Source of the DNA: a virus | Direction: 5' to 3' (one strand) | Length of the DNA: 64,000 nucleotides | Virus record (IMG/VR): IMGVR_UViG_3300006316_000001 | Coordinates: 1-64,000 of that record | In this document: piece after piece, positions 30,452-47,617 of the stretch | Position numbering within the stretch: the first letter of the stretch is position 1 | Layout of the letters: every line of letters starts with the position of its first letter | Made by a program: the position numbers and the translations under genes | The notes under the pieces: generated by a model | Told to the model about the DNA's origin: nothing | Seen by the model: only the letters and a program-made list of their open reading frames with translations | Database searches by the model: none

Positions 30452-30471
30452 TTCCTATTAGCCTTCTATTG
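30452..30471 (-). promoter_or_regulatory. Putative phage RNA polymerase promoter (copy 1, autoregulatory)
   Basis: Minus-strand CAATAGAAGGCTAATAGGAA, identical over 20 bp to 46329-46348 and 47598-47617. A-rich then AATAGGAA resembles the initiating end of T7-class promoters (TATAGGGA). It is placed to transcribe the small gene and the RNA polymerase itself. Confidence 0.7.
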
Positions 30472-30504
30472 GGAAAGGGAAACCGCATGTTTTATGTCAA
30501 AAAA

Positions 30505-31236
30505 TTAACAAGAATGTTTTAGTGAACCTTGGGAAATTGCCTTACGGTCACCGAATGAAATAGGCTTAGGAAGACGTTCAACGCGAACGGTGAAACAATC
30601 CAAGCCTATGAATAAGAATAGATTTCCAGAGTAATGGTCGGAAAAATCGCCCATCCATAAAGCGCCTGTATTATCCATGCGCTTCACGCCCTTACCAGTG
30701 GCAGTTTTACTCAAACCATACCATATTTTGGTGGTACGTTTTATGTCTCCGGTGAGGCGACTGTTGCGACTCAATTCTCTAGCATTTATCGTGTTAGCTT
30801 GCTCAATAAAGAAATCCTGAATGTGATCGTGCATTTCTTCTGAGTGTACATCATCGTCAAGCTTTTGAGCCTTTCTATATTCTTTGAAATTGGTTACATC
30901 ATTATCTAGATCACACCATAGATTATGTTGTAGAATATCAACGAATTCGCCAGCCTCTATTTGCCCCACTTTCCGATTCAGAGAAAACTCTATCAGAAAT
31001 CTGTGTGGTTTTCGCTTGGCGCCATTATCGTACACCCTCACTCGGATGTCTTGAATTATATCACGGTATCCGGTGATTATGCCGTTGAAAGTCATATATT
31101 CCATACTTTTACCTTTGGTTATCTCACCAGTACTTTTGTCAATTTTATTTCTGGGTTGATCAAAAATTGAAAATAACCCAGTTTGAAGCAGAGCATGCTT
31201 AGTTTTGAAGCGCGACGGCTGGTCAAAAATGCTCAT
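30505..31236 (-). CDS. Hypothetical protein with doubled SIFDQP motif
   Basis: 243 residues. The N-terminus holds SIFDQP twice (residues 2-7 and about 23-28), similar to the C-terminal SIFDL of the RNase H homologue, so these may be clamp-binding peptides. The rest is alpha/beta (MTFNGIITGYRDIIQDIRVRVYDNG) with GKGVKRMDNTGALWMGDFSDHY. No family recognised. SD AGGAGG lies about 8 nt upstream. Confidence 0.7.
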   Translation of the reverse strand: MSIFDQPSRFKTKHALLQTGLFSIFDQPRNKIDKSTGEITKGKSMEYMTFNGIITGYRDIIQDIRVRVYDNGAKRKPHRFLIEFSLNRKVGQIEAGEFVDILQHNLWCDLDNDVTNFKEYRKAQKLDDDVHSEEMHDHIQDFFIEQANTINARELSRNSRLTGDIKRTTKIWYGLSKTATGKGVKRMDNTGALWMGDFSDHYSGNLFLFIGLDCFTVRVERLPKPISFGDRKAISQGSLKHSC

Positions 31237-31267
31237 AACGCGCTCCTCCTGTTAAACGTCGTTATCA

Positions 31268-31300
31268 CATTACACTCTAGATCTTATAAGTTGAAGTATG
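31268..31300 (-). promoter_or_regulatory. Possible weak promoter
   Basis: GAGTGTAATG on the minus strand (-10 TGTAAT, 31268-31273) resembles the cassettes' GAGTATAATG, but no good -35 is visible and there is no palindrome. Confidence 0.25.
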
Positions 31301-31646
31301 GACCTCGAACCCAAGATGGATCAGCCTTACCGAATGTTGTAATACAGTACAAGTTCTCTTCAGCCCAAACCACCGCAATACATTCAATTGGAATGAATAC
31401 GCGATGCTCTTTACCACCACTAATCAATGTGAATGACATCCCAGATTCACCATTATGAAAGTGTTTTACTGTTGGACCACTCAAACATAGCCTAGCTCTG
31501 TGTGGATTCTGGAAAATGAAATCTGGTCCAATAAAGCCTTTACTGTGTACGAACATCACATTCACAGACCCGCCCAGTTCATCTATGATGTCTATTGTTG
31601 AATTGATCAATCTCATTTTGATGTGTTGTTTGGAAATATTATGCAT
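31284..31646 (-). CDS. SspB-like ClpXP adaptor candidate
   Basis: 120 residues from the ATG at 31646 (AGGAG 8 nt upstream). The segment LCLSGPTVKHFHNGESGMSF, then RVFIPIECIAVVWAEEN, parallels SspB: a hydrophobic strand, small beta domain, then VP-x-x-AV-x-AIYARENG. SspB delivers ssrA-tagged proteins to ClpXP. If correct, the phage may redirect host proteolysis. Similarity is by motif shape only. Confidence 0.5.
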   Translation of the reverse strand: MHNISKQHIKMRLINSTIDIIDELGGSVNVMFVHSKGFIGPDFIFQNPHRARLCLSGPTVKHFHNGESGMSFTLISGGKEHRVFIPIECIAVVWAEENLYCITTFGKADPSWVRGPYFNL

Positions 31647-31953
31647 CTCCCCTGCTCCTCTTACAAGTCTCAATGAAGTTCTCTAGGATTGCAGAAGAAC
31701 CACCTAAAGTTGTTTTTGAGATGTTTGTTGAGATGTTTATGATTTCGCCATTACATGAAGAGTTTAGTGTGATGTAAGGTGTATTGGTCCAATCCACTAA
31801 ACGAATATAGAAAAACGAACCATGGAGGAGATAGATCACACTGTCAGGCGTATCATCTTTCAGTTCAGCATTGTGGTGTTCTAGAATGGTTCTAAACGCA
31901 TCAGCGTACTCATTCAGTCTATCAACACCCTTCAAATTACCAGATATTCTCAT
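31639..31953 (-). CDS. Hypothetical protein
   Basis: 104 residues, alpha/beta, overlapping the SspB-like start by 8 nt. First gene of its operon after a promoter cassette. No family recognised. Confidence 0.6.
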   Translation of the reverse strand: MRISGNLKGVDRLNEYADAFRTILEHHNAELKDDTPDSVIYLLHGSFFYIRLVDWTNTPYITLNSSCNGEIINISTNISKTTLGGSSAILENFIETCKRSRGDA

Positions 31954-32042
31954 TACGTTGCAACCTCTACAGTAAGGGAAGACACTAACCCTAGCACTTT
32001 ACCCTATAACATCCATTATACTCTTATTTTACGAGAAGTAAA
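31954..32042 (-). promoter_or_regulatory. Sigma-70 promoter cassette
   Basis: TTTACT (32037-32042), 16 bp, TATAAT (32015-32020). The leader has the GGGTTAG...CTTCCC arrangement of the second leader class. Confidence 0.82.
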
Positions 32043-32065
32043 GCGTTTTAGTTAAGTTTTAATGC

Positions 32066-32095
32066 AAAAAGAGTTCCCTCCTTGGAACTCTTTAT
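32066..32095 (-). terminator. Rho-independent terminator
   Basis: GAGTTCC-AAGGAG-GGAACTC then TTTTT on the minus strand. The 5' edge overlaps the stop codon of the gene at 32092-32379. Confidence 0.88.
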
Positions 32096-32379
32096 TTCCT
32101 CTCTCGATAACCCATATTAATGAGGTTTGACAAGACGAGGTTATATTTACTCACTAGCACTATTTCCCACGCACCTTTGTGTTTAGCCCAAGGCTTTTCA
32201 CCACGTTTATGGAGTAGAACGAAACCGTGAAACTGTGAATTAGATAATCTGAATTCACCATTCAGATCATCGTCTTCTTGTTCTGTTATTTCGAATGTGT
32301 AGCTCCCGTCAGTATAACATCCGACATTAGTTACGGTAATGTCCAGCAACTCCTGTACAGAATCTAATAGTCTCTTCAT
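32092..32379 (-). CDS. Hypothetical protein
   Basis: 95 residues starting MKRLLDSVQELLDIT, alpha/beta, acidic centre (ITEQEDDDLNGEFRL), basic C-terminus. No family recognised. Its ATG is 3 nt after the stop of the 30-residue gene. Confidence 0.6.
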   Translation of the reverse strand: MKRLLDSVQELLDITVTNVGCYTDGSYTFEITEQEDDDLNGEFRLSNSQFHGFVLLHKRGEKPWAKHKGAWEIVLVSKYNLVLSNLINMGYRERK

Positions 32380-32382
32380 AAA

Positions 32383-32475
32383 TCACCCTGATTCAAGTTC
32401 AAACATAAGTTCGTTGTATTCATCAAGTGTTATTTGTCCATTTTCGTATGCGTATTCTAACATTGACTGTGACAT
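32383..32475 (-). CDS. 30-residue small protein
   Basis: ATG at 32475 with AGGGG 7 nt upstream; begins MSQSMLEYAYENGQITLDEY and continues acidic to ESG. Its stop is 3 nt from the next start. The clean Shine-Dalgarno and spacing support expression. It could be a short helical regulator. Function unknown. Confidence 0.5.
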   Translation of the reverse strand: MSQSMLEYAYENGQITLDEYNELMFELESG

Positions 32476-32484
32476 AAATAACCC

Positions 32485-33075
32485 CTAGAATGAGTATTGT
32501 ACACCCAGTGACGCAGAGAAGTCAGAGTTCTCAACAACACCGTAATCGAACACGTCATATCCGATAGAGCCGTAAATGTCAATCCCTTCCCAACCAGTTG
32601 TGCCACCAAGCTGAACTGAGTAGTATTTCACATCAACGTCACCCACGCTTTCTGATGTGTCATTGACTGTTGTACTCTCTTTACCTTGAGCGTCAATGGT
32701 TGTGATAGTTTGTGAACGTGATAATGTGACATCACCAGTTCCAAAACCGTATTCGCCTTTGATGAACGTTTGAACGCCAGAAAGGTCGAATAGATCGTAT
32801 GTGATGCCGAATGTGTAGATTTTGTTTTCTGCATCTTTACTATCATGGTAATATTCATCATACGTCTCGGTCTTTTTGACGCGAGTGAATTCCTTTTCTA
32901 GATTGGATTCACCAGTCATGTAACCAAATGAGAATGACACATCATCAATCTTTTGGCCAACCGAGAAGTGGGTGAAGCTATCGCCAGTCGCTTTGAATTC
33001 AGCGCGAACGAATGTCTCTGCGTTTACTGAAAGTGATGCTGATGCTATAAGTGTTGCTAAAATTAGTCGTTTCAT
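32485..33075 (-). CDS. Secreted outer-membrane beta-barrel-like protein
   Basis: 196 residues. A clear signal peptide (MKRLILATLIASASLSVNA, cleavage before ETFV) is followed by alternating-residue beta strands (FTHFSVGQKIDDVSFSFGYM; VKYYSVQLGGT; GIDIYGSIGYDVFDYG) and a terminal Phe (LGVQYSF), the outer-membrane assembly signature. A small 8-stranded barrel is likely. Phages carry such proteins as surface modifiers (Lom-, Cor- or OmpX-like), perhaps for superinfection exclusion; the role is inferred. Confidence 0.75.
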   Translation of the reverse strand: MKRLILATLIASASLSVNAETFVRAEFKATGDSFTHFSVGQKIDDVSFSFGYMTGESNLEKEFTRVKKTETYDEYYHDSKDAENKIYTFGITYDLFDLSGVQTFIKGEYGFGTGDVTLSRSQTITTIDAQGKESTTVNDTSESVGDVDVKYYSVQLGGTTGWEGIDIYGSIGYDVFDYGVVENSDFSASLGVQYSF

Positions 33076-33165
33076 AATATTTTTCCTATTTTAAAGAGGG
33101 AAGTCTGTTACCATTAACGCTTTACCCTATAAGACACATTATACTCTTTTTATTGGAAAAGTAAA
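33076..33165 (-). promoter_or_regulatory. Sigma-70 promoter cassette for the barrel protein
   Basis: TTTACT (33160-33165), 16 bp, TATAAT (33138-33143); second-class leader (GGG...GTTAATGGTAAC...CCC). Confidence 0.82.
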
Positions 33166-33190
33166 GCGTTTTTAGTAACTTTTTAAAAAT

Positions 33191-33219
33191 AAAAAAAGGC
33201 TCCCCGAAGGAAGCCTTTT
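33191..33219 (-). terminator. Rho-independent terminator
   Basis: Minus strand AAAGGCTTCC-TTCG-GGGAGCCTTTTTTT with one mismatch, after the gene at 33229. Confidence 0.88.
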
Positions 33220-33228
33220 AATGTGGTT

Positions 33229-33432
33229 TTAGAATTGCCTGAAGAACCAACCGATTAATGCAAGAACTGCACAAATTGATAGCGCAATACCTATCACAAC
33301 CACGGAAAATACTATGAAGCATATGTAAGAGATAAGCATCACGGCAAACTCAGCCCATCGGCAAATTGTTGATGCTATCCAAAGAATTGTTGCTGCTAAC
33401 CATTCAATACAATCAAGTGATTTACTTAGCAT
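33229..33432 (-). CDS. Small membrane protein
   Basis: 67 residues, mostly hydrophobic with two predicted transmembrane helices (residues about 8-25 and 30-62; ISYICFIVFSVVVIGIALSI). Overlaps the upstream gene by 7 nt. Last gene before a terminator. Function unknown. Confidence 0.6.
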   Translation of the reverse strand: MLSKSLDCIEWLAATILWIASTICRWAEFAVMLISYICFIVFSVVVIGIALSICAVLALIGWFFRQF

Positions 33433-33950
33433 GGTATACCCTCACACAAGTCAGGTTTTCTATTACATACACGATAAAGCGGTTTCTTTATGCGCTGCCC
33501 TTTGATCTTAACGTCAGCGCCTTTATAGCCAACGCGAGTCAATTGGCGCTTGACACCAGTCAACTCATTAATGTATGGGCTATTGATTCCGCGATTGTAA
33601 AGAGAAATCAACTTTTCCAATTTGAAATATTCGCAACGGCTATTCATGACATGGAATCGCCCATTATCATTCGGCCATGTTGTCAAATAAAGACCTATGC
33701 TGTTAGCAAAAGCATTGAGTTTGTGCCAATGCTTTATGTCTATTCTCAATTTATGTTTTTGCTCAAATGTTTGTTTGCTCATTTCTGATACTCCTTCCAA
33801 ACTAGCCGTGTATGTCACGGTTCCCTTAATGGTATGTGACGTTATACGTGGCTCTTGGTTGGTGGGCGCTGGATGTATTTGTTTACCATCTATTGTCAAA
33901 GTACACACATCCGTGATTGTCACACCATTCACTTCTATTTCTATGCTCAT
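33426..33950 (-). CDS. Hypothetical protein with basic C-terminus
   Basis: 174 residues. N-terminal 50 residues are beta-rich, the middle has KHKLRIDIKHWHKLNAFANSIG, and the C-terminal 50 residues are strongly basic (KRQLTRVGYKGADVKIKGQR), suggesting nucleic-acid binding. No family recognised; ends overlap both neighbours. Confidence 0.6.
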   Translation of the reverse strand: MSIEIEVNGVTITDVCTLTIDGKQIHPAPTNQEPRITSHTIKGTVTYTASLEGVSEMSKQTFEQKHKLRIDIKHWHKLNAFANSIGLYLTTWPNDNGRFHVMNSRCEYFKLEKLISLYNRGINSPYINELTGVKRQLTRVGYKGADVKIKGQRIKKPLYRVCNRKPDLCEGIPC

Positions 33951-34252
33951 GATATTGGCCTATATGCTATTTCCGATTGTCTGATATCTTCCTTTTCCCA
34001 GTCATCCGGACAACGCACCAGTAACCCGTCCCGAATGCAATGATCGTTAATTCTCCACACATCATTGTGTAGTGAACCCCTAATCTCGATGTACCGCTTA
34101 CCTTCGATAGCAACTATTGGAGGGGTGTGCTCCCCAAAATGGATATAAGTATCGTCATGGTCATCACGACCATTCAGAATTTCATCTTCACCAATAACGC
34201 ACGCCTCTAGAGCCATTTCGCCACTCAAAGTATTTCTTGGATCAATCATCAC
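33947..34252 (-). CDS. Hypothetical protein
   Basis: 101 residues, acidic, no recognised domain. Tandem ATGs at 34252 and 34249. 4-nt overlap with the next gene; 3-nt gap to the DUF4326-like gene upstream. Confidence 0.6.
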   Translation of the reverse strand: MMIDPRNTLSGEMALEACVIGEDEILNGRDDHDDTYIHFGEHTPPIVAIEGKRYIEIRGSLHNDVWRINDHCIRDGLLVRCPDDWEKEDIRQSEIAYRPIS

Positions 34253-34255
34253 ATT

Positions 34256-34549
34256 CTACCCGAAAAGAGGACTAATGCTACTCTCAGCCAATTCCACATA
34301 CACATCACCGTGGCATGGTTTAGGCTTACAGAAACATCCTAGTCGTTTGCCTTGAAGAGAGTTGACCCGATCCCTGAATTCAGGGTCGGTATTATACCGA
34401 TGTATCGCGTACTCTCTATGTTTAGCGATAGACTGGGTTCTACCCAGCCCACCGAATGGATTACCGAAGTAGCCATCGCAACCATGCCCAGCCCTTCCGA
34501 TGTATACATCATATTCGTCAGTCTTGAGATTCACTACTGTTGTTTGCAT
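34256..34549 (-). CDS. DUF4326-family protein
   Basis: 97 residues with the family pattern: VVNLKTDEYDVYIGRAG, GYFGNPFGG, and a C-terminal GKRLGCFCKPKPCHGDVYVE. CFCxPxxCHGD is diagnostic of DUF4326. The biochemical role is not established; the Cys/His cluster suggests metal binding. Confidence 0.78.
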   Translation of the reverse strand: MQTTVVNLKTDEYDVYIGRAGHGCDGYFGNPFGGLGRTQSIAKHREYAIHRYNTDPEFRDRVNSLQGKRLGCFCKPKPCHGDVYVELAESSISPLFG

Positions 34550-35129
34550 GATGTACCGTTCCTGATATAGTTCCGTCTTCTTCGACCAAATAATTAGTCA
34601 GTGACGTTGTGTATGGTGAGGTAGCAAAGGCTTCAACCCAAGCATCGAGGTTCTTTTGTTGATCGTCATAACAAATAACCTCTTCAGGCTTGAATTCATG
34701 GCGCATATAGTCGACTTTACTTAGACGCCATTGCTTATGACACTCATGGATAATTCGCTTGACATCATCAGGATTATCGATATTTGCCGTTAATGACTGC
34801 TCAGCTCGAATATATGCTTTGTTTCTGAAACAAAAATGATCAATTCGATGAACGTCAACTCCAAATTCAACTAACTGTTTCATAGTCATCATCTGATAAA
34901 TTGAATCATCAGGACGAGCAGAACATAACACAACTGTTGAGTTAGGATCAGCTATAGCTTCTTTCATTCGCTCGACCACAGTCTCAACCGCTGGTTGTTT
35001 GGACATGGTAGAAATGAATGTGTCCCAATTGAAGCCTTCACCAACCCAAGGGTGGTCATAATTATGCACCAGTGTACCATCAAAATCAAAAATGTGTAGC
35101 TTCTGCTTTACTTTATCATTCACATTCAT
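34518..35129 (-). CDS. HAD-superfamily phosphatase
   Basis: 203 residues from the ATG at 35129 (AAGGA 8 nt upstream). Motif I is HIFDFDGTLVHN (DxDGT), motif II VVLCSARPDD, and a later ICYDDQQKNLDAW supplies the acidic motif IV. It resembles HAD phosphatases of the polynucleotide-phosphatase type, so DNA/RNA end repair or nucleotide dephosphorylation are possible; the substrate cannot be read from sequence. Confidence 0.75.
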   Translation of the reverse strand: MNVNDKVKQKLHIFDFDGTLVHNYDHPWVGEGFNWDTFISTMSKQPAVETVVERMKEAIADPNSTVVLCSARPDDSIYQMMTMKQLVEFGVDVHRIDHFCFRNKAYIRAEQSLTANIDNPDDVKRIIHECHKQWRLSKVDYMRHEFKPEEVICYDDQQKNLDAWVEAFATSPYTTSLTNYLVEEDGTISGTVHHANNSSESQD

Positions 35130-35253
35130 CAAGTTTTTCCTTTTCTTCAACAATTACAGTTTCGTGACACTTAGGGCAATCTACAAGATCACCATCTTTA
35201 GAATCTTCAGGCATATCCCAACAGATCCAACAACTATGGCATTTAGCCTTCAT
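35116..35253 (-). CDS. Small zinc-ribbon protein
   Basis: 45 residues from the third of three tandem ATGs (GGAG 7 nt upstream). CHSCWICW and CPKCHE form a plausible CxxC...CxxC zinc ribbon with an acidic tail. Overlaps both neighbours. Confidence 0.55.
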   Translation of the reverse strand: MKAKCHSCWICWDMPEDSKDGDLVDCPKCHETVIVEEKEKLDECE

Positions 35254-35494
35254 CATCATTCTCCATGTAATCCACAAATGATCTATAAATGTACAGAAGA
35301 AATGCAGGTAACCACATAAGGGCAATCATACCACACATCTTGTGGGTGCCAATGTAGTTGATTGGGAATTTGTGATCAAGTTTACCCGTTCTCATGTATG
35401 TTATGAAATCAGGAATGACGATAATCAAGTAGGCGATTACAACTGTAACCAAGTAAATGCCCAAACCGATAAAAATGTTATTTAGGTAATTCAT
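35243..35494 (-). CDS. Membrane protein
   Basis: 83 residues, two transmembrane helices (residues about 5-30, IFIGLGIYLVTVVIAYLIIV; and 52-72, MCGMIALMWLPAFLLYIY) joined by a basic loop. Function unknown. Confidence 0.6.
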   Translation of the reverse strand: MNYLNNIFIGLGIYLVTVVIAYLIIVIPDFITYMRTGKLDHKFPINYIGTHKMCGMIALMWLPAFLLYIYRSFVDYMENDDEG

Positions 35495-35681
35495 GTTTTC
35501 TCTCCACTGCTACGAAACCGCCCTTTCCGTGAACAAGCTTAATGCCAGCCATTTCGAAGTAAGATGCACAAGTTTCAACTTCACCTTCAACCATACTGCC
35601 CGCATCACCACAATCATTCAACTGTGATAGTGATGAGTATAGTATCACCAATGTCTTTTCTGCTTCTGTTAGATATATCAT
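35478..35681 (-). CDS. Hypothetical protein
   Basis: 67 residues, MIYLTEAEKTLVILYSSLSQLN start, no recognised domain, overlaps neighbours at both ends. Confidence 0.55.
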   Translation of the reverse strand: MIYLTEAEKTLVILYSSLSQLNDCGDAGSMVEGEVETCASYFEMAGIKLVHGKGGFVAVERKHELPK

Positions 35682-35899
35682 TTCAACCCCTTAATCCATG
35701 CGATAGATTTGTTACGAGATCTTGAAATACTGAAGTGGGCAATGTTAGCATCGCGCCAGATGTAGATGCTATAGAATACTTCATTTTTGCGTGTGATTGT
35801 AACATCCATGGATAATTCAACATCATTACCCAACACTTTCTTAGCAACTTTTGAAAGATAAAGCTTTCGCTTCATCACCGAAATTAAAATATTGTCCAT
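35678..35899 (-). CDS. Hypothetical protein
   Basis: 73 residues, basic, beta-rich (VELSMDVTITRKNEVFYSIYIW). An alternative internal ATG at 35875 exists (MKRKLYLSK). 4-nt overlap with the next gene. Confidence 0.55.
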   Translation of the reverse strand: MDNILISVMKRKLYLSKVAKKVLGNDVELSMDVTITRKNEVFYSIYIWRDANIAHFSISRSRNKSIAWIKGLK

Positions 35900-35908
35900 A
35901 AGATTATC

Positions 35909-36229
35909 CTAGTTTATTTCTTCGACAAATGCCCATGCGGCATGATAAACTGAAGCACCTTTATCATCTCGCATACACACTGTATCCACAGGAGCGACAA
36001 CACGGTAAAGAACAGGTTCGCCACCAACGGAACGGGCAGCACGTCCTGCGTATATCTCAGCCAAACCTTTGTCCGCAGTGAAGAAGACTCTATCAAGGTT
36101 CTTCTTACGACCTTGCTCAGACAACACACCACTACACTCAGGCGGAAGAAGCATAGATTCTATACCAGCAGCCGAGCAACTACCGTGGTAGTATGTGGTT
36201 GTTTGGCGTTTACAATCTACTGTTATCAT
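35909..36229 (-). CDS. ADP-ribosyltransferase-like protein
   Basis: 106 residues. TYYHGSCSAAGIESMLLPP, then NLDRVFFTADKGLAEIYAGRAA, then PVLYRVVAPVD recalls the small Arr/PARP-like ART fold: YHG-T/S, a VYFT/FFTA strand, A-x-x-YA-x-x-A helix and a VY-x-V strand. An H...Y...E triad is possible (His in YYHG, Tyr in EIYAG, Glu near the C-terminus in VEEIN). It could modify host protein or RNA early in infection. Identification is by motif only. Confidence 0.5.
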   Translation of the reverse strand: MITVDCKRQTTTYYHGSCSAAGIESMLLPPECSGVLSEQGRKKNLDRVFFTADKGLAEIYAGRAARSVGGEPVLYRVVAPVDTVCMRDDKGASVYHAAWAFVEEIN

Positions 36230-36318
36230 TACTGTTACCCTCGTTTTAGAACCTTTGTTAAGGGGTTAACCGCTAACCCCTATAACAATCATTATACTCT
36301 TATTTTACGAGAAGTAAA
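36230..36318 (-). promoter_or_regulatory. Sigma-70 promoter cassette
   Basis: TTTACT (36313-36318), 16 bp, TATAAT (36291-36296), palindrome GGGGTTA-GCGGT-TAACCCC at 36262-36280. The -35 lies inside the last codons of the upstream gene (stop at 36300). Confidence 0.87.
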
Positions 36319-36800
36319 GCTTTTTGTTTAAGTTTTTTATGCTTAGTAATCAAGCCCTTAATACGTTTTAATAAGTTCTTCTGGTCTTTGATACATTCCA
36401 AATTGAACTCAGTTTCTTCTGGATCATCGGCTTCATCTTCCAACCATTGCTTGTACCGTTCCAACGAAAGTTCACCATCATACAGTGCATATTTCAACGC
36501 ATTCAGTTTGGTGGTGTAGAACCCTTCAGGTAGGCGTTCAGCCTCGAGTCGAAACTGCATTTTGTACATCTGTCTGATGCCACCATACCACTTTCCTGCT
36601 TTGCTATCGAACGTTTCATCATTCTTGACAGCTATGTTGACACGCTTACTGAAATCAACACGAGTACGCCAATTGGGTATTCTAGGAAGTTGTATAGTCC
36701 GAACATGCCACTCATCAACGTGTATCTTTCTGTCACCACACACCATGACTTTGTACAGAACTTTACCCACAAAGAGTTTGGGAGTCTTTTGACGCTTCAT
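36300..36800 (-). CDS. Hypothetical basic protein
   Basis: 166 residues, strongly basic. The N-terminal half is beta-rich (KLFVGKVLYKVMVCG), the middle helical, and the end Lys-rich (ITKHKKLKQKALLLVK). The final codons are supplied by the next promoter cassette: AAAGCTTTACTTCTCGTA encodes KALLLV, so the cassette probably inserted into or trimmed the gene end. Confidence 0.6.
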   Translation of the reverse strand: MKRQKTPKLFVGKVLYKVMVCGDRKIHVDEWHVRTIQLPRIPNWRTRVDFSKRVNIAVKNDETFDSKAGKWYGGIRQMYKMQFRLEAERLPEGFYTTKLNALKYALYDGELSLERYKQWLEDEADDPEETEFNLECIKDQKNLLKRIKGLITKHKKLKQKALLLVK

Positions 36801-37213
36801 TAAACTATACCTCCGAACATATTCAATGTTCTTTCAAAATGGAATTCTTCAACCAATTCACCTAGAGCGCGAGCCTGATTGATGCTATCGCGACTGGGTT
36901 TGGCAAACATGTCTGTTAGGACTGTGTCTTTAGGTAGAGACAATAGAACATCAACCAAATTGGGGTTCTGAAGGAGGTATTGACGCCAAAGTTCCTTATA
37001 GAGTTGCCATTGCCGTTCTACGGTCATCTCATTGATAGGTGGTTTACCTTTGCCCTCTTTTATGGAACCATACCCTTTGATTGTGCATTGATACCAAGCT
37101 TCGATACATTGACCTCGACCATCAATACACACCCAAGCGTAAAATGCAGAGAATCTTCTATCACCGTAAGAAGAGCATTCATAACCATTAATGTGTTCAA
37201 CCGCCCATCTCAT
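36800..37213 (-). CDS. Hypothetical phage protein
   Basis: 137 residues. SSYGDRRFSAFYAWV, CTIKGYGSIKEGKGKPP, LWRQYLLQNPNLVDVL and TDMFAKPSRDSINQARAL have the look of a conserved phage family of unknown role. 1-nt overlap with the next gene. Confidence 0.65.
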   Translation of the reverse strand: MRWAVEHINGYECSSYGDRRFSAFYAWVCIDGRGQCIEAWYQCTIKGYGSIKEGKGKPPINEMTVERQWQLYKELWRQYLLQNPNLVDVLLSLPKDTVLTDMFAKPSRDSINQARALGELVEEFHFERTLNMFGGIV

Positions 37214-37523
37214 TTTCCATCCCTCTTAATATGTCGAATGTGATATTGGTGAGTTCAATATTACTATTTATCCATTCATAAATACTCTCATCGGTCATAC
37301 CATTCATGGCAGTTTGCATATCAATCGGAAATAAATCGAAAGGTATTGTCCAAGTGCGTTGTAGTGTGCCAATGTTTATGGAACGTTGTGTATACAAATC
37401 AAGCACTTTAGTGTTTGAGTCAACCAATGCGACCCTGATGGCGGCAACATGAAGGAATAGATCTGTTGCATAATTAATTTCTATTGTTTTGGTGTGTAAC
37501 ACCGTTTTATTGAAGCGTATCAT
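37197..37523 (-). CDS. Hypothetical protein
   Basis: 108 residues from the ATG at 37523 (GGGAG 8 nt upstream). Mixed alpha/beta, no recognised domain; overlaps the next gene by 17 nt. Confidence 0.55.
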   Translation of the reverse strand: MIRFNKTVLHTKTIEINYATDLFLHVAAIRVALVDSNTKVLDLYTQRSINIGTLQRTWTIPFDLFPIDMQTAMNGMTDESIYEWINSNIELTNITFDILRGMENEMGG

Positions 37524-37681
37524 TATTGTTCTCCCACGATTGATATACCACAATCACAAAAAGTATCACCACACTCGAAACATAACTCTTCAGACATTTC
37601 CAACGCGGCAAAGGCCACGACAGCATCAGAAACGTCATCACCTAACATATCCGATGCAATATTTAAATGGTTCAAGTCCAT
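37523..37681 (-). CDS. Small Cys-containing protein
   Basis: 52 residues from the ATG at 37681 (AGGTG upstream). CFECGDTFCDCG near the C-terminus could bind metal. 1-nt overlap with the next start. Confidence 0.5.
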   Translation of the reverse strand: MDLNHLNIASDMLGDDVSDAVVAFAALEMSEELCFECGDTFCDCGISIVGEQ

Positions 37682-37682
37682 A

Positions 37683-37922
37683 TCAATCACCTGTATCAAC
37701 TGAAACAATGAAGCACCAATGGGTTTCCAATATCGAAGTCTTATGAGTGATGCGATCCTCTAAAGCCTTCATGGTCAGGATGGTGTAGCTATCGAATAGA
37801 TAACCATCACAAAACCCTTCCATGTATTCGACGGAACGAAATTCACGCTTCAGAAGTTTATCAACATCTTCACGCTTCCCTGATGTCTTTCTCGAGTCCA
37901 CCATTATCGCAAAATTAGCCAT
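37683..37922 (-). CDS. Hypothetical protein
   Basis: 79 residues from the ATG at 37922 (GAGG 8-9 nt upstream, inside the end of the upstream gene). Starts MANFAIMVDSRKTSGKRED. No family recognised. Confidence 0.5.
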   Translation of the reverse strand: MANFAIMVDSRKTSGKREDVDKLLKREFRSVEYMEGFCDGYLFDSYTILTMKALEDRITHKTSILETHWCFIVSVDTGD

Positions 37923-40129: not shown

Positions 40130-40130
40130 A

Positions 40131-40529: not shown

Positions 40530-40538
40530 ATTCCCTCC

Positions 40539-40625
40539 TTACATAGAGAATAGTGATGGTGCTTCGCTAAGAACTGTGAATATAGCTATGACGATCAATA
40601 TGTCAACTATATCTATCTTTCTCAT
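40539..40625 (-). CDS. 28-residue membrane peptide
   Basis: Starts MRKIDIVDILIVIAIFTVLS; a single short hydrophobic helix. Its stop runs into the SD of the next gene (TAAGGAGG). Expression plausible but unproven. Confidence 0.4.
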   Translation of the reverse strand: MRKIDIVDILIVIAIFTVLSEAPSLFSM

Positions 40626-40659
40626 GCTATGCATCCCATGTGTTAATTAGTACCATGGT

Positions 40660-41109
40660 TCACCTCTTTAATTCGAAGTCACCAGATTCATACATAGCAG
40701 AAGCAATGCACGCAAACGACCATTCACCTTCGCTACTGATATCTTCGGCAATCGCTTCTACCCTCTTAATGAATTTCTCACGTTCCGGAGATACACCATT
40801 GATTTCTTTCTGGTGGAATTTACCAGTCTGCTTATCTAGATAGAAATTGATGGTAATTCCTTGAATAGACAGAGTGTTCGTTTTATAACAATAATGGTTC
40901 TGTCTAGAGATTCCATTGACTAAAGTCCAAATCTCGGCACAGTTAGGTGTGTGTGGCCAGAACATTATTTGATGGTCTACTGAACCAACAGCACCACATG
41001 CTGTGCAAGAGAACGCTGACAATAGACCTTTCTGGCCAGTTCCATTACACGTCTCACATTTAACAAGCAGTCTTGTATCGACTACCTTTCCAACTCTTGG
41101 CCTATTCAT
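40660..41109 (-). CDS. DnaJ-type zinc-finger protein
   Basis: 149 residues. CETCNGTGQKG and CTACGAVG form a DnaJ-like CxxCxGxG zinc module near the N-terminus; the rest is an unknown alpha/beta domain. 4-nt overlap with the upstream gene. Confidence 0.6.
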   Translation of the reverse strand: MNRPRVGKVVDTRLLVKCETCNGTGQKGLLSAFSCTACGAVGSVDHQIMFWPHTPNCAEIWTLVNGISRQNHYCYKTNTLSIQGITINFYLDKQTGKFHQKEINGVSPEREKFIKRVEAIAEDISSEGEWSFACIASAMYESGDFELKR

Positions 41110-41378
41110 TGTTTATCTCCTATCATTAGGTTGTACCATAATTGTGCCCTTTGTGTAAGCTCTACACATATGACACATTCAGCAATGTCGGCAATCTTAC
41201 CATCATCATCTAGCTTAATCGCCTCTAGACCATCAATAAGATCTTGAGCGATAGACATCTGGGAAAGCTTCCAATTCGGATCTACCTCTGCCTCAGATAT
41301 CACCATTCGCAATTCTTTTATTGCCTGAACCAATGAGGCTATAACCTCGAATCCTTGCTTATTGTTGTCTGTTTCCAT
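41106..41378 (-). CDS. Hypothetical protein
   Basis: 90 residues from the ATG at 41378 (GGAG upstream). Mostly helical and acidic (SLVQAIKELRMVISEAEVD). The ATG overlaps the stop of the membrane gene upstream. Confidence 0.55.
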   Translation of the reverse strand: METDNNKQGFEVIASLVQAIKELRMVISEAEVDPNWKLSQMSIAQDLIDGLEAIKLDDDGKIADIAECVICVELTQRAQLWYNLMIGDKQ

Positions 41379-41533
41379 TACATTCTCTCCACGATCACTG
41401 ATACAATGAATGCTATCACGATACAACCAACAACACCCTTTACACCAAGCAGTTCAACACCACCAGCCAAGACAAGTAGACCACCAGCAACAATGACAAC
41501 ACAGCACCATATGATCATTTGAATTATTGTCAT
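41378..41533 (-). CDS. 51-residue membrane protein
   Basis: Two hydrophobic segments: MIIWCCVVIVAGGLLVLAGG and VVGCIVIAFIVSVIV. SD AAGGAG upstream; 1-nt overlap with the next start. Function unknown. Confidence 0.5.
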   Translation of the reverse strand: MTIIQMIIWCCVVIVAGGLLVLAGGVELLGVKGVVGCIVIAFIVSVIVERM

Positions 41534-41576
41534 AACTGATTCTCCTTACGATCAGGAACCATTCCCAATCCTTAGA

Positions 41577-41606
41577 ACCATTATACTCTATTGCGACTTA
41601 AAAAGA
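41577..41606 (-). promoter_or_regulatory. Promoter with good -10 and poor -35
   Basis: GAGTATAATGG (TATAAT 41580-41585) is identical to the cassette core, but the -35 region is TTTCTT at 17 bp. Probably the degenerate promoter of the operon ending at 40131. Confidence 0.5.
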
Positions 41607-42350
41607 AACCTCTAATTTTCCCTATTTTATTCGCCTCCCTAGCCTGAACTTGTTTCACCTATTTAATACATATAGCGATAGAGACTAGGCATAGATAGAA
41701 CATACACTATTACTCTAATCATACATACTCTCCTATACATATACATACATACCATATAAGGAATAGACATAGACATAGTACGATAGACTATAGCATCATA
41801 CCATACTCCTAGCATAGATCATAGTACTGAGCATAGATAAGATTATATAGATAGAACATAAGAGAGAACAAGAACATGATAAGGTATCACTGCAATGAAT
41901 AATGCTCTGGGTCTGGATAAAAAATGTTACTGGTAAGTATAGGGGGAGTCTCTCAAAAATATGATATCTATGATAATAACCGCGCGATACCTAATTTCAC
42001 GTAAAAATAAAATCGTAATGTTTAAAATGATTTACCATCAATTAAGCTGAAACATACTAAAAACCCTGTCTGGCACAAGCGATTACGTTCATTACGTACC
42101 ATTTTAGCTGTAATAACGTTAGGTTTGTCCTAGGATGAAAATTAAAGGATTTAAGCTACCATATTCTGAACTCAAATTTCTCGAACTTGTTCAGACCCAG
42201 AGCAGCCAACAATCCCACCACAAAAGCCAACTACAGCCCACTGCAGCCAACCATTACCAACACATATTCCCCATAACCAAGAATGGCCAACCACAGTTAC
42301 CTGCAGCTAGCCATCTGTCCCGCGTCCCCCCGCATTAGTCCCCTAAGTTT
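41590..42350. other. Long non-coding, low-complexity region
   Basis: About 760 bp without a supported gene. 41650-41880 is built of short ATAGA/CATAC/AGCATAGA words. 41880-42130 is ordinary AT-rich DNA. 42195-42320 is C/A-rich on the plus strand with repeated CAGCCAAC and GCCAAC words (G/T-rich on the minus strand). A 67-codon plus-strand frame from 42135 reads through this repeat and is not convincing. Candidate origin, packaging or regulatory region. Confidence 0.5.
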
Positions 42351-42400
42351 TATCTAGGCACTATGCAAAATAGAATAATCTATCTAGGCACTATGCAAAA
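42351..42400. repeat. Direct repeat of 20 bp, period 30 bp
   Basis: TATCTAGGCACTATGCAAAA occurs at 42351-42370 and 42381-42400, perfect copies three helical turns apart, just beyond the stop of the gene at 42408. Likely a protein-binding pair. Confidence 0.9.
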
Positions 42401-42407
42401 CCGTATA

Positions 42408-43211
42408 CTACACATCATCCCAAGGCTTCGGAACGTTCAGAGCAGCTCTAGCGTGAACACCAAACCGCCCGTAGTGTCTCACACTTTGATTGGTTGTCTC
42501 TTCAGTTACGATTTGCGGAGACCGCACTGAACTATCAGAAGACACGTCAGCGTTGGGAAGGACACGAGAGCGCGCATCAACAAAATACGGTTTATCAGGA
42601 TCAATTCTATACCCGATAGAAACGTCTGGATCAGAAGCGCGTTCTACACCCGTTACTAACCCTGTTCCTGACCGAACGGTGATTGACACATTACCGATAG
42701 GATCTTCCAATAATTGTACCGTGTCAGGAGTGTCCGGTTCAGAATCCATTTCAATATCTTCGTCGTCGACAAAGAACAATTCAGATAATGACGGCTCTTT
42801 TTCTGAATGAGTTTCTAGTTGATTCTCGGCACTATCCTCATCGGCAGTGACATGGAGAGTTCTAACCAACCTAGCATGTTCTGGTAAGAATACCAATTGA
42901 GTGTACCCTTCATGAACGTGCTCTTCTGGAACATTATACACACCGATGCGAAGTTCTTCATCTTTAAGTTCTTGAGGTTTGAAGAACCAACGACGAAGAG
43001 ATTGTATTGAATCAAACCCGAATACATAATCAGATCTGTTATCCCAAATGTCATCCCATATATCACAAAGCTTACCATCTTCTTGAGGTACTGGGTGACG
43101 GGAGATATCTTGACTGATAATGTGTCGTGACGACGTTCGGTAGAATCCAGTATTGACATTTGGATGTGCGTTACTTTCTTCTGTTTTGTGTTCAACGCGG
43201 TATACAAGCAT
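42408..43211 (-). CDS. Hypothetical protein with acidic C-terminal half
   Basis: 267 residues. The first about 125 form a compact domain (MLVYRVEHKTEES...GFYR, WDDIWDNRSDYVFGFDSIQSL, then YNVPEEHVHEG) reminiscent of a widespread phage domain of unknown role. The rest is acidic and low complexity (DDEDIEMDSEPDTPD), probably unstructured. Starts 9 nt after the upstream gene's stop. Confidence 0.65.
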   Translation of the reverse strand: MLVYRVEHKTEESNAHPNVNTGFYRTSSRHIISQDISRHPVPQEDGKLCDIWDDIWDNRSDYVFGFDSIQSLRRWFFKPQELKDEELRIGVYNVPEEHVHEGYTQLVFLPEHARLVRTLHVTADEDSAENQLETHSEKEPSLSELFFVDDEDIEMDSEPDTPDTVQLLEDPIGNVSITVRSGTGLVTGVERASDPDVSIGYRIDPDKPYFVDARSRVLPNADVSSDSSVRSPQIVTEETTNQSVRHYGRFGVHARAALNVPKPWDDV

Positions 43212-43220
43212 GATAGGCTC

Positions 43221-43523
43221 CTAGTATTTAGAAATGTGTTGTACAGTAACGCGATTCGTACCAGTCTCTCGAACCGCAATCTGAAGCCAATCGTAGTCTT
43301 TATTCTTCAGGCTGAATACACGGTAGCCTTCGTCAAGAAGTGCTCTAGCTGGTTCATCAGGTTGGGCGAAGATTAACTCATTGGTCACTGAGTTGTTCAC
43401 TTCGTACTCAGAGATGTAGTCACCTGAATCAGATTTGATTTCAGCGTTCTTACCGCCACCAATAACATTCACAAGGCGCATTGTAGTGCCGCGTGGTATA
43501 GTGATATTTAGTTCGTGTTTCAT
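43221..43523 (-). CDS. Hypothetical protein
   Basis: 100 residues from the ATG at 43523 (AAGG upstream), beta-rich, no recognised domain. First gene after a cassette. Confidence 0.6.
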   Translation of the reverse strand: MKHELNITIPRGTTMRLVNVIGGGKNAEIKSDSGDYISEYEVNNSVTNELIFAQPDEPARALLDEGYRVFSLKNKDYDWLQIAVRETGTNRVTVQHISKY

Positions 43524-43539
43524 AATTGGAGCCTTAATG

Positions 43540-43601
43540 ATTAGGAGGGCTAACAACTAACCCTATAGCAACCATTATACTCTTATTAGCGGAGAAGTAA
43601 A
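43540..43601 (-). promoter_or_regulatory. Sigma-70 promoter cassette
   Basis: TTTACT (43596-43601), 16 bp, TATAAT (43574-43579), palindrome GGGTTAG-TTG-TTAGCCC at 43547-43563. Confidence 0.86.
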
Positions 43602-43628
43602 GCTTTTTAGGAAGGTTTTTATGCGAAG

Positions 43629-43651
43629 AGACCCCACTCTAGGTGAGGTCT
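43629..43651 (-). terminator. Terminator-like hairpin
   Basis: AGACCTCAC-CTAGA-GTGGGGTCT on the minus strand, one mismatch, followed by a weak CTTC; 11 nt after the stop at 43662. Confidence 0.6.
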
Positions 43652-43661
43652 GATATTGGTA

Positions 43662-44012
43662 TTATTTTGAGCTGAGTTTGGGACTAAATTCCTCTTGTTC
43701 ATAACTCCCATCACGTTGTAGTATTATGGAGATACCATTATCCTTTAGTCTTCTCTCCAATAATTGAAGTTTGTGGCGGAAATCCTTGCGGTCACTCTTA
43801 AATGCCCCAAATTTACTCCAGTTCAGAATGTTATCCAAGATATCTGCAATACTTGCGGGTGCGGCAGTTACTTTACTGTGTTTGAACATTAATATCTTGC
43901 CCGTTTCTCTATCTCGAAGACACGCTTCAATTTGGTCATGACCAACATACGAGAACATCTCAACACGACCTTCAACAATGAATGTACCTTCCTTATCATA
44001 TTTACAAGACAT
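43662..44012 (-). CDS. Hypothetical protein
   Basis: 116 residues from the ATG at 44012 (AAGGG 6 nt upstream, overlapping the sigma-factor stop). Beta-rich N-terminus (GTFIVEGRVEMFSYVGHDQIE), helical C-terminus. Co-translated with the sigma factor; it could be a partner or anti-sigma protein, which is a guess. Confidence 0.6.
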   Translation of the reverse strand: MSCKYDKEGTFIVEGRVEMFSYVGHDQIEACLRDRETGKILMFKHSKVTAAPASIADILDNILNWSKFGAFKSDRKDFRHKLQLLERRLKDNGISIILQRDGSYEQEEFSPKLSSK

Positions 44013-44014
44013 AA

Positions 44015-44923
44015 TCAACCCTTATTATCTTCAGTGATGAAATCATCAAAGTGAACATCAGCCAAGTCAACGTAGAATCGAAGTTTCGATAAGCCATCAT
44101 TTTGAAGTTGACGGATTCGTTCTCGTGTTAGACCGAAGTGTTGACCACACTCTTCTAGTGTTTGATCTTCAAAGTAGCGCATTCTGATGATCTCGGAAAT
44201 GCGAGGTTTGATCACACCAAGATAAGTGTTCACATATTTATTGAATGCTTCAGGATCAACATTCAGCGCGTTACCATCTTCATCGGCTATGTGATCGTGA
44301 TGATCTAAGAAGTCCATAGGTTTACCATCGTCACCTTCAACGATTAGTTCATCGAAGCCTCTGATCGAACCACACATGAGTTTGATTGCGCTTCGGATAG
44401 ACGTTCTAGTCAGACATGATTCATTGAGGTTCTTTTCTTTGACGTACGCAGAAATGATGTCAATGGCATCAACAGAATCAACAACCGTATTGGCTTGGCG
44501 AAGAGCTGCACGGGAAACCTGCATAGCACGACCAATGTGAACAGGATATCTCATGAATTGGTCAACGTGACCTTCCATCATGTATCGTACTATACTCTGA
44601 CGAATCCATTGCATTGAGTACGTTGATAGTTTGAAGCCGCTTTGAATGTCGAATTTATCGATAGCGATCATCAGACCCATCATACCTTGGTTAAATAGGT
44701 CAAGGTAAAACTCCTCACGGCCAGCACCTGAATATTTTCTGGCCATCTTACTAACCAGTTTGATATTGTGCTTGATCAGCTCATCGCGAGCCCAAGCAAC
44801 CTGACCCTGTTGCCATAAATCGATTAGGATTAGCTCACGCCCTTTCTCAAGAACGGAATGATCCATGTAAGGTTTGAACATCTCAGGAAGTTCAATTCTA
44901 ACTACTTTTTGTTTAGCTCTCAT
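44015..44923 (-). CDS. Sigma-70-family transcription factor
   Basis: 302 residues from the ATG at 44923 (GGGAG 8 nt upstream). Region 2 is LVSKMARKYSG, then LFNQGMMGLMIAIDKFD and FKLSTYSMQWIRQSIVRYMM (cf. FSTYATWWIRQAITR). Region 3.0-like is FMRYPVHIGR (cf. TIRIPVHM). Region 4 is ISEIIRMRYFEDQTLEECG, then FGLTRERIRQLQNDGLSKLR. It resembles group 2 (RpoS-like) factors, not ECF, and would direct host RNAP to TATAAT-like -10 elements. Unusual next to a T7-type RNAP gene. Confidence 0.9.
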   Translation of the reverse strand: MRAKQKVVRIELPEMFKPYMDHSVLEKGRELILIDLWQQGQVAWARDELIKHNIKLVSKMARKYSGAGREEFYLDLFNQGMMGLMIAIDKFDIQSGFKLSTYSMQWIRQSIVRYMMEGHVDQFMRYPVHIGRAMQVSRAALRQANTVVDSVDAIDIISAYVKEKNLNESCLTRTSIRSAIKLMCGSIRGFDELIVEGDDGKPMDFLDHHDHIADEDGNALNVDPEAFNKYVNTYLGVIKPRISEIIRMRYFEDQTLEECGQHFGLTRERIRQLQNDGLSKLRFYVDLADVHFDDFITEDNKG

Positions 44924-45186
44924 ACTACGGACTCCCTGCATCCAATTAGAGAAATGTCTTCTTCGTCCTTATCTTCGAAAAATACGATATCAAGACCTTT
45001 TATCTTAAAATAATTTTTATTGGCGGTAACTTCGGCACCACCATTTTCAAACTGATCAGAAACGGCTTCAGCGTACGCAACCTGCCAATCATCATGGCTG
45101 AGTGAAACTGTCATATCACATCTACCCATTTCTTCATATCGCTTTATGATGTATTTGAGTAGTGACATAGAGAATAAGATTTCCAT
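44920..45186 (-). CDS. Hypothetical protein upstream of the sigma factor
   Basis: 88 residues from the ATG at 45186 (GGGGGAAA upstream). Starts MEILFSMSLLKYIIKRYEEMG, ends acidic. 4-nt overlap with the sigma gene. No family recognised. Confidence 0.55.
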   Translation of the reverse strand: MEILFSMSLLKYIIKRYEEMGRCDMTVSLSHDDWQVAYAEAVSDQFENGGAEVTANKNYFKIKGLDIVFFEDKDEEDISLIGCRESVV

Positions 45187-45392
45187 TACGCTTTCCCCCA
45201 TTTAAACATTCCAGTAACCATATCTTGCCCCATCCCAACACCATCAATGAATCCGGATAACTCCGCTTCGGACCAAAACTGCTTTGACCAATCAGTTCCA
45301 TTCAGCGTCAAGAGTGCGCAGTACTCTCCTTGTGGGGTGGTTTCAGTTTTGATGGTAAACCCACACAAACCAGCCTTAGCATTTAATTCCAT
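45186..45392 (-). CDS. Hypothetical protein
   Basis: 68 residues from the ATG at 45392 (AAGGA 8 nt upstream). CGFTIKTETTPQGEYCALL; no recognised domain. Starts 1 nt after the Imm-like gene's stop. Confidence 0.5.
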   Translation of the reverse strand: MELNAKAGLCGFTIKTETTPQGEYCALLTLNGTDWSKQFWSEAELSGFIDGVGMGQDMVTGMFKWGKA

Positions 45393-45393
45393 G

Positions 45394-45582
45394 TTATGAA
45401 TCCTTCTTGGTATTATCCGTGAAGCACCACACAATGGCCACTAACCAGAAGATTCCGGTGAACAGTCCAATAATGTTGCAAATAAGAATTGCAGCCGCGC
45501 TGTTGTGTTTTCGGTAGCAAGCTATGATCATTGGAGCGAACGCCAATACCGCAACCACTATAAGTAAAATTGTTGAAGCCAT
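45394..45582 (-). CDS. Imm-like superinfection-immunity membrane protein
   Basis: 62 residues, two transmembrane helices. The pattern LLIVVAVLAFAPMIIACYRKH, then ILICNIIGLFTGIFWLVAIVWCF matches the superinfection immunity family (P-x-I-IA-x-x-RKH, then N-x-x-x-G-x-TG-x-x-W-x-x-A-x-x-W) to which T4 Imm-like proteins belong. It probably blocks DNA entry by later phages at the inner membrane. Confidence 0.7.
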   Translation of the reverse strand: MASTILLIVVAVLAFAPMIIACYRKHNSAAAILICNIIGLFTGIFWLVAIVWCFTDNTKKDS

Positions 45583-45586
45583 GATT

Positions 45587-45838
45587 CTATCCTCTCATCT
45601 CATCGATGACAAATTGTAATCTATTCAGTTCGGCTTCCGAGGCACCTTTGAGGAAAGCTCTGATGCGCACTCGGGAACCCAGTGTTCGTTTGTTCTCAGA
45701 AGGTGCCGCTGTAGCACTTTCCTTTACCTTTTTAGCCTTAGTTGGTTTTGCTTCATGCATTTCATTAAGTAAGGCGGTCAGTTGCTTCTCCGCATTCTTA
45801 TGTGAGGCAGGCTTTGGACCAATATTAAACATATTCAT
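45587..45838 (-). CDS. Small basic hypothetical protein
   Basis: 83 residues; Lys/Ala-rich linker (EAKPTKAKKVKESATAAP), then a small helical domain (RVRIRAFLKGASEAELNRLQ). Possibly DNA or ribosome binding. First gene after the last minus-strand promoter. Confidence 0.6.
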   Translation of the reverse strand: MNMFNIGPKPASHKNAEKQLTALLNEMHEAKPTKAKKVKESATAAPSENKRTLGSRVRIRAFLKGASEAELNRLQFVIDEMRG

Positions 45839-45926
45839 TTAGTTACCCTTATATAAGAAGGGAAGCTGTTAACCTTAACGCTTTACCCTATAGCAACCAT
45901 TATACTCTTATAGTTTTAGAAGTAAA
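45839..45926 (-). promoter_or_regulatory. Sigma-70 promoter cassette, rightmost of the early region
   Basis: TTTACT is replaced by TTTACT-equivalent AGTAAA on the plus strand (45921-45926), 16 bp, TATAAT (45899-45904); second-class leader with GTTAAGGTTAAC. It reads away from the late genes. Confidence 0.82.
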
Positions 45927-46072
45927 GCCTTTTATTAAAGTTTTTTAATGTTCTGATCGCTGCTTTGGGTCTCTATTGAAATGTTCCGTTTACATTTTTT
46001 TCTTTTTTAGTTTCCGATATTCTTGTCTCTAATTCTCTCTATTATATTATAACCCCCGTTATTTTCCTCCGG

Positions 46073-46104
46073 AACGATCAAACGATCATACGATCATTCA
46101 ATCA
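46073..46104. repeat. Four tandem 8-bp iterons
   Basis: AACGATCA, AACGATCA, TACGATCA, TTCAATCA in direct tandem; the first three contain GATC. Confidence 0.85.
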
Positions 46105-46184
46105 TTCCTTCGAAAAGGTCACGGACACGCTCACGCGCATCCTTAGACGTTCAACTGATAAAAGCATGCTCGCGTAGCGACTGT

Positions 46185-46203
46185 GCACAGCACAGCACAG
46201 CAC
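46185..46203. repeat. GCACA microsatellite
   Basis: GCACA repeated with period 5 for nearly four copies, in the divergent spacer. Confidence 0.85.
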
Positions 46204-46328
46204 TACACTCCCACAACATTCAACAACATCTCACCAGAACATTCCTTATATTTCCCACACACACGCGCGCGAGCATGCACACGAGAGAGACACTCGATAT
46301 GACCCAGAATGCCAGTTTAAGTGAATTT

Positions 46329-46348
46329 CAATAGAAGGCTAATAGGAA
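46329..46348 (+). promoter_or_regulatory. Putative phage RNA polymerase promoter (copy 2)
   Basis: CAATAGAAGGCTAATAGGAA, identical to 47598-47617 and to the minus-strand copy at 30452-30471, located 92 bp before the capsid-paralog start. Followed by GGAAAG and a small GTGT/ACAC hairpin. Confidence 0.7.
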
Positions 46349-46440
46349 GGAAAGTGTGCTTTTTAAAACACGCGACCTTTCATTTTATTGATGGGATAAT
46401 TCGATTACCCCATATCAAAACTAATGAGTGGGGAAATGAC

Positions 46441-47565
46441 ATGCATTTCAATAAGAAACTGAGAGCTATTGTTCTCGAAGCCGCACCACAACTGAAGGAA
46501 TCCATTCTTGAAGTTTTGAAAGCGGATAATGGTGAGATGAAGCTTGACCTTTCACGTAAGGTTAAACTTGACGACTCACTAAAGCTTAATGTTAAAACAT
46601 TGGCGATCGGTGGTACTGGTGGTGAAGCCCTAGCTATCGATGAATTGTTAATGGCTGATATCACAGATCGTGCTATTAACCAATTCTCAGGTATTTTTAC
46701 TGACCTTGATATTTCAGTGATCAATTCAGTGAATCATCGCGGTCTTGTGGAGTTAAATTCTCTTGGTGTAACTAAAGGCGTTGAAAACGTTCCTGGTCTA
46801 CCACAGTCTATGACTCCAACTGGTGAACTTGGTCAGCTTGTATCTCAGGTAGGTAAGGCTGCTATCATTACTTTTGTTTCGCAAGAAGCAGTGCGTGATA
46901 CGATGAATGGAGATTCGGTTTCTCTATGGGATTATATAGTTGAATCGGCTGCGCGCCAAATCGTACATTACTTCTCTATTCAGATCATCGCTGGAGATGG
47001 TAAACCTGACCGTCTTCGTGGCTTGGTATCTTCTAAGCGTATTGATGATGAAGAATCACTGAAGCCTGATCATGAACGTGACCCAGATTTTCTGCAAGTC
47101 AAACTATCAGGTGTCGATGGTGATTTTGGTACTGACGATAAGACAGCAGTTGAGAACATTGTATTTTTCTTGAACTCGGTTCCTTCGAAGAATCGTGCCA
47201 ATAGTAAAGTGTATATGAACTCAACAACTCACGCTGCGATTGAACTTCTTTCTTCTACGTCACCTCGTTTACGATTTGATGAAAAGGTTGTCGATGGTCA
47301 ACTGGTTACTACCGTTAATGGTTTTGTAATCTCTCTTGACGATATGATGCCTAATATGGATATGGGCTCAATCCCTATGTTGGTTGGCGATATTAATGCC
47401 GCTATTGAGTTTGCTTGGCACGACAAACAAACTGTCGTTGACCCATTCTCGATTGACGGTGCTATTAAATATAGTCAGTTCCCGCGTGCTTCAGAGCGTA
47501 TGAAAGATAATACCGCTTTACGAGCCTTCAAAATGTCAGCTGAAGCGATTCCTGCTCCTAATTAA
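46441..47565 (+). CDS. Second HK97-fold capsid protein (major capsid paralog, possible vertex protein)
   Basis: 374 residues from the ATG at 46441 (GGGGAAATGAC upstream; a longer GTG-initiated frame starts at 46321 inside the promoter and is rejected). Clearly paralogous to the major capsid protein at 55773-57026: KTLAIGGTGGEALAIDELL against KALAVGGTGGEALAIDEEL; ISVINSVNHRGLV against KSVSSVNYREMV; AGDGKPDRLRGLVSSKR against FGDGRPDNLRGILSSKR; VDPFSIDGAI against VDPYTTDGVV. It has a shorter N-terminal pre-domain. Own phage promoter, 9 kb from the capsid. By analogy with T4 gp24/gp23 it may form the pentameric vertices. Confidence 0.82.
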   Translation: MHFNKKLRAIVLEAAPQLKESILEVLKADNGEMKLDLSRKVKLDDSLKLNVKTLAIGGTGGEALAIDELLMADITDRAINQFSGIFTDLDISVINSVNHRGLVELNSLGVTKGVENVPGLPQSMTPTGELGQLVSQVGKAAIITFVSQEAVRDTMNGDSVSLWDYIVESAARQIVHYFSIQIIAGDGKPDRLRGLVSSKRIDDEESLKPDHERDPDFLQVKLSGVDGDFGTDDKTAVENIVFFLNSVPSKNRANSKVYMNSTTHAAIELLSSTSPRLRFDEKVVDGQLVTTVNGFVISLDDMMPNMDMGSIPMLVGDINAAIEFAWHDKQTVVDPFSIDGAIKYSQFPRASERMKDNTALRAFKMSAEAIPAPN

Positions 47566-47597
47566 AACTTGGGTTCAGAAACACAGTTATAGGTTTT

Positions 47598-47617
47598 CAA
47601 TAGAAGGCTAATAGGAA
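47598..47617 (+). promoter_or_regulatory. Putative phage RNA polymerase promoter (copy 3, late operon)
   Basis: CAATAGAAGGCTAATAGGAA followed by GGGAAG, 33 bp after the capsid-paralog stop; drives the long late operon. Confidence 0.7.

Follow-up and report, generated by a model that had tools for sequence, protein, structure and literature searches.

The promoters of the T7 group (T7 TAATACGACTCACTATAGGG) are contiguous sequences of about 20 bp, in which an A/T-rich stretch is followed by GG and which are read by an enzyme of the T7 family. The strong promoter of the Klebsiella phage KP34, T(A/G)ATGTTACAGGAGTA, was proven in vitro; it is 16 nt in length and occurs in three genome copies, one of them tied to the polymerase gene (PMC6834552). 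In the same phage, a repeated 32-nt sequence once predicted as a promoter proved inactive, which is a precedent for caution (PMC6834552). For Syn5, the promoter has a length of 15 nt (PMC6834552).

The window analyzed here comprises the first 64,000 bases of a virus record of 106,815 bp, and the element described below was searched across the full record. The virus is a siphovirus whose replication module is T4-like. The 20-bp sequence CAATAGAAGGCTAATAGGAA was found in three perfect copies, with none for the reversed control and an expected count of approximately 1.6e-7 (order-2 Markov model). The first-pass annotation had proposed it as a candidate promoter of the phage's own RNA polymerase, and its coordinates and strands for the three copies were reproduced. 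Leader lengths were counted from the first G of AATAGG, taken as +1. The features are as follows:

16426-16445, minus: 17/20 near-match to the 20-mer, coding, in the end of the gp62-like clamp-loader gene
27807-30164, minus: T7-family single-subunit RNA polymerase, 785 aa (Pfam RNA_pol, 1e-69)
30167-30433, minus: ORF of 88 aa between copy 1 and the polymerase, function not assigned
30452-30471, minus: copy 1 of the 20-mer; predicted +1 at 30455, 22 nt before ATG 30433
46329-46348, plus: copy 2; predicted +1 at 46345, 96 nt before the capsid paralog ATG 46441
46441-47565, plus: capsid paralog, 374 aa, 31% identical to the major capsid protein at 55773-57026
47598-47617, plus: copy 3, head of the late operon; predicted +1 at 47614, 242 nt before ATG 47856
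47856-48335, plus: endonuclease VII-like gene, the first late gene behind copy 3

All three copies are intergenic and in sense orientation, before the polymerase gene, the capsid paralog and the late operon, as had been annotated. Copy 1 separates an upstream ORF from the 88-aa ORF, which is followed by the RNA polymerase gene. Copy 2 is located within a mechanical ORF opening at GTG 46321 and was counted as intergenic because the real start of the capsid paralog is likely ATG 46441; the alignment of the paralog to the major capsid protein starts at residue 45 (2.8e-47). Copy 3 is found between the capsid paralog and the endonuclease VII-like gene, behind which lie an HNH gene and the genes for terminase, portal, protease, capsid and tail. 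The late block on the plus strand extends from 46.3 to 86.7 kb (about 40 kb). The varying leader lengths (22, 96 and 242 nt) speak for a start of transcription at the element and against a translation signal. The flanks had been described as different, which holds for the upstream sides, where the three copies are unrelated; downstream, the late copies 2 and 3 have GGRAAGTG in common.

In a mismatch-tolerant scan of the full record, the next best site was the one at 16426 with three mismatches, all others having at least six, and no pattern of many copies inside genes emerged. The near-match, already reported in the annotation, is real and coding. It encodes KKANS* and carries CT where the 20-mer has GG, and the sister gp62 proteins (see below) are without a KKANS* C-terminus. 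It is probably not a promoter. Chance combined with coding is its most likely origin, and it could also be a relic of the element.

The 20-mer is one contiguous conserved block without a spacer, in which it resembles the promoters of T7, KP34 and Syn5. In all three copies AATA is followed by GG, i.e., an A/T-rich melting region stands right before a predicted purine start, in line with the previously suggested resemblance to the initiation end of T7-class promoters. The sequence is otherwise unlike the T7-group consensus near TAATACGACTCACTATAGGGAGA, agreement being limited to the TA-GG end and a few positions, and the T7 group has many promoter copies, whereas three are present here, in a genome of another type. 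The similarity to KP34 includes the 16 nt upstream of +1, the three copies and the link of one copy to the polymerase gene, but the KP34 copy is located behind the polymerase and the copy found here in front of it, and the sequences differ. The structure of the leaders was dropped as support for a promoter, since of the three only the copy 2 leader folds better than shuffles (z -2.7); a predicted hairpin in the copy 2 leader pairs the first GG. The long leader before the first late gene (47640-47855) contains several inverted repeats, and an Rfam search of 45800-48400 gave no match.

For the 785-aa protein, the best match among solved structures was T7 RNA polymerase (2.2e-86, three-member profile). 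All four catalytic residues are present, D478, K546, Y554 and D708 corresponding to D537, K631, Y639 and D812 of T7. N748 of T7 is a promoter contact residue (contact rule), and it aligns with N647 of the 785-aa polymerase. If +1 is the first G, position -11 of the 20-mer is a G and position -10 an A, as in T7. This agreement favours a pairing of the enzyme and the element, yet it is suggestive only, depending on the alignment and on the assumed +1. The closest relative of the polymerase (47% identity) was found in the uncultured virus G001, where it also stands before UvsX. G001 lacks the 20-mer, as expected given its different specificity loop, and no repeat of the same kind was found in it. 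In other collections, the 20-mer gave one coding match in IMG/VR and none in the GTDB genomes.

The nearest named phages, as judged by portal and DNA polymerase, are the Vibrio phages V6Aob, 2.058.O (and 3.058.O) and henriette 12B8. Their structural and replication genes are related to those of the virus studied here, many proteins being 50-63% identical. A portal scan of IMG/VR revealed no closer relatives, and a scan of IMG/VR for polymerases of the sister type found none. Each of the five phages compared has exactly one T7-family polymerase. The sister polymerases are about 25% identical to the 785-aa enzyme and lie in opposite orientation beyond the UvsX end of the replication block. In henriette 12B8 the polymerase (104479-107046) carries the label of a hypothetical protein, and its annotated start lies 110 codons too far downstream; the 2.058.O polymerase is likewise labelled hypothetical.

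For the sisters, words common to the polymerase-upstream and late-head regions were searched. The 15-bp sequence AAAAACATRCACTTA occurs exactly three times in 2.058.O (743, 88887 and 91853) and exactly three times in henriette (94165, 104374 and 400 on the minus strand). V6Aob carries AAAAACAATAACTTA, likewise a 15-bp element, at 651 and 11671 and AAAAACATACACTTA at 3608, two of its copies being changed to one identical new sequence. All copies in V6Aob, 2.058.O and henriette are intergenic and sense (9/9). In each phage one copy precedes the polymerase, a second directly follows it and the third heads the late block; the regions used for discovery did not include the site of the second. The expected exact counts are below 0.001 per genome. 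The discovery score was 5.5 compared to a null minimum of 6.0 (0/150; 150 shuffled and 150 genomic nulls), which is a modest margin. In the searchable literature, no published description of these three-copy elements was found. Another sequence, CCCTTGNNNTATAAGGG, was rejected as a sister promoter; it is an inverted repeat and is also present before the minus-strand block of the virus studied here.

The sisters thus resemble the present genome in the number of copies (three), in their intergenic sense placement and in the occupied sites ahead of the polymerase and at the start of the late block. They differ in the sequence and length of the element, which does not end in GG, in the polymerase and in the position of the third copy behind the polymerase gene. 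The 20-mer is absent from the sisters (at least five mismatches), and the sister elements are absent from the present genome. Behind copy 3, the genes at 49544 and 50015 have homologues behind the post-polymerase copy of V6Aob. Since each element is missing from the other group and the polymerases are so dissimilar while the genome places are kept, polymerase and element seem to have undergone a joint change. The sisters represent two independent lineages only, the polymerases of 2.058.O and henriette being 98% identical. This comparison, in which a different polymerase goes with a different three-copy element at equivalent places, is the strongest new evidence that supports the putative promoter function.

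A second transcription factor gene, absent from the first-pass annotation, was identified together with a family of promoter-like sites:

44015-44941, minus: sigma-70-family factor, 308 aa (Sigma70_r4 1.5e-14, r2 4.1e-11)
32013-32042, minus: TTTACT-N16-TATAAT site, the nearest sigma-70-type site upstream of the polymerase operon
45897-45926, minus: TTTACT-N16-TATAAT site, head of the minus-strand block holding the sigma gene

The nearest relatives of the 308-aa factor are RpoS and RpoD, and both region 2 and region 4 are present. The genome contains 21 TTTACT-N16-TATAAT sites with a long common consensus, all 21 confined to the minus strand and spread from 1150 to 104000 (e.g., 22179 and the two listed above). 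Their conserved bases extend well beyond the hexamers, and the sites are often followed by GTTATAGGGT and an inverted-repeat-like tail. The 308-aa factor is a candidate reader of this family, which may be read by a host sigma factor, the phage factor or both. Neither the sisters nor G001 yielded a sigma gene with any of three profiles, and when they were roughly searched for repeated words of the TATAAT type, no family comparable to the 21 sites turned up. Because both the sigma gene and the 21-copy family are missing in the sisters, which keep a three-copy element, the 20-mer was assigned to the polymerase; the sigma gene would go with the 21-copy family. In the Vibrio phage D506 and the Microcystis phage MaAM05, which have related sigma factors, the same profile detected no T7-family polymerase. 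The combination of both in one phage may be uncommon, as judged from only these two records.

Form, placement, absence elsewhere and the sister comparison together support the annotated function, and the 20-mer is very probably the promoter that the phage's T7-family RNA polymerase recognises. Against this count the small number of promoters, only three and two of them adjacent, for a block of 40 kb, as well as the unmatched T7 consensus and the fact that no direct homologue of the promoter was found for comparison. The sigma gene opens another reading, in which the 20-mer is a promoter for the host core enzyme carrying a sigma factor, most notably the 308-aa one, since this sigma-70-family factor with its regions 2 and 4 gives the phage a second transcription specificity. 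We consider this unlikely. The 20-mer does not contain -10 and -35 hexamers spaced 16-18 bp apart, its contiguous conservation ends where the -35 would fall, and over none of the three copies could a sigma-70 site be recognised. The TATAAT family suits an RpoS/RpoD-like factor better, and the sisters maintain their three copies, although neither a sigma gene (three profiles) nor a family of that type (rough word search) was found in them.

The sister layout, identical in arrangement and different in sequence, also argues against an operator or an RNA-level signal (a repressor or activator site, or a signal for processing or translation) in place of a promoter. Protein-binding sites can be short perfect repeats, and copy 1 is located inside a minus-strand block, so that upstream transcripts could carry the element. 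The 20-mer is not palindromic, however, its distance to the start codon lies anywhere between 22 and 242 nt, and two copies head the late block, on a strand that has no member of the 21-copy family; such a signal is very improbable. There is hardly any likelihood that the copies are functionless traces of recent dispersal by recombination, homing or a mobile repeat, an explanation to which their perfect identity and the HNH and endonuclease VII genes near copy 3 would lend themselves. The flanks of the copies differ, the copies span different modules, and their sense orientation at three operon heads would be left without explanation.

As a polymerase promoter, the element would extend from roughly -16 to +4, with the start at the first G of AATAGG. 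The sigma-type minus-strand promoters would first produce the early genes including the polymerase, for which the site at 32013 is the nearest. From copy 1, the polymerase would then increase its own expression and that of the replication genes behind; its transcription of the capsid paralog and of the 40-kb late block would begin at copies 2 and 3. Recognition by the 785-aa enzyme, the start point and this order of events are what we infer from the sequence and the comparison with the sisters. The switch is of a known kind with a new sequence. A more extensive proposal is a layered cascade, in which the RpoS/RpoD-like sigma factor steers the host polymerase to the 21 near-identical minus-strand promoters, the three promoters of the polymerase gene and the late genes are served by the single-subunit enzyme, and polymerase and promoters are exchanged as a unit within the phage group, the places being kept and the sequence not. 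Such a combination would be rare, and the proposal is tentative, being somewhat more doubtful than an even chance.

If the promoter assignment is correct, a polymerase-promoter pair of new specificity is present in siphoviruses with a T4-like replication module and not in T7-like podoviruses, and the sisters would add two more pairs. Joint turnover of polymerase and promoters at persisting positions would provide a natural data set on the co-change of specificity loop and promoter. As the phage has a sigma factor in addition to the polymerase, how the two share the work can be tested directly.

Further repeats were observed in G001 (L017) and at the ends of the record. In G001, a divergent pair of AGCTGGACGTCCATATAG (TCCAGCTGGACGTCCATATAG) at 4519 (minus) and 4562 (plus), covering 4519-4579 within an inverted repeat, is a lead only, as a possible promoter pair or operator. 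It is flanked by the polymerase operon and by a minus-strand block that has homologues of the genes at 49544 and 50015. The contig end of G001 (approximately 12-220) carries a tandem array of the 10-bp unit GGTCCGGTAT. In the record analyzed here, bases 1-58 recur at 106512-106569, 304 bases before the end, which is perhaps a terminal-repeat or assembly trace.
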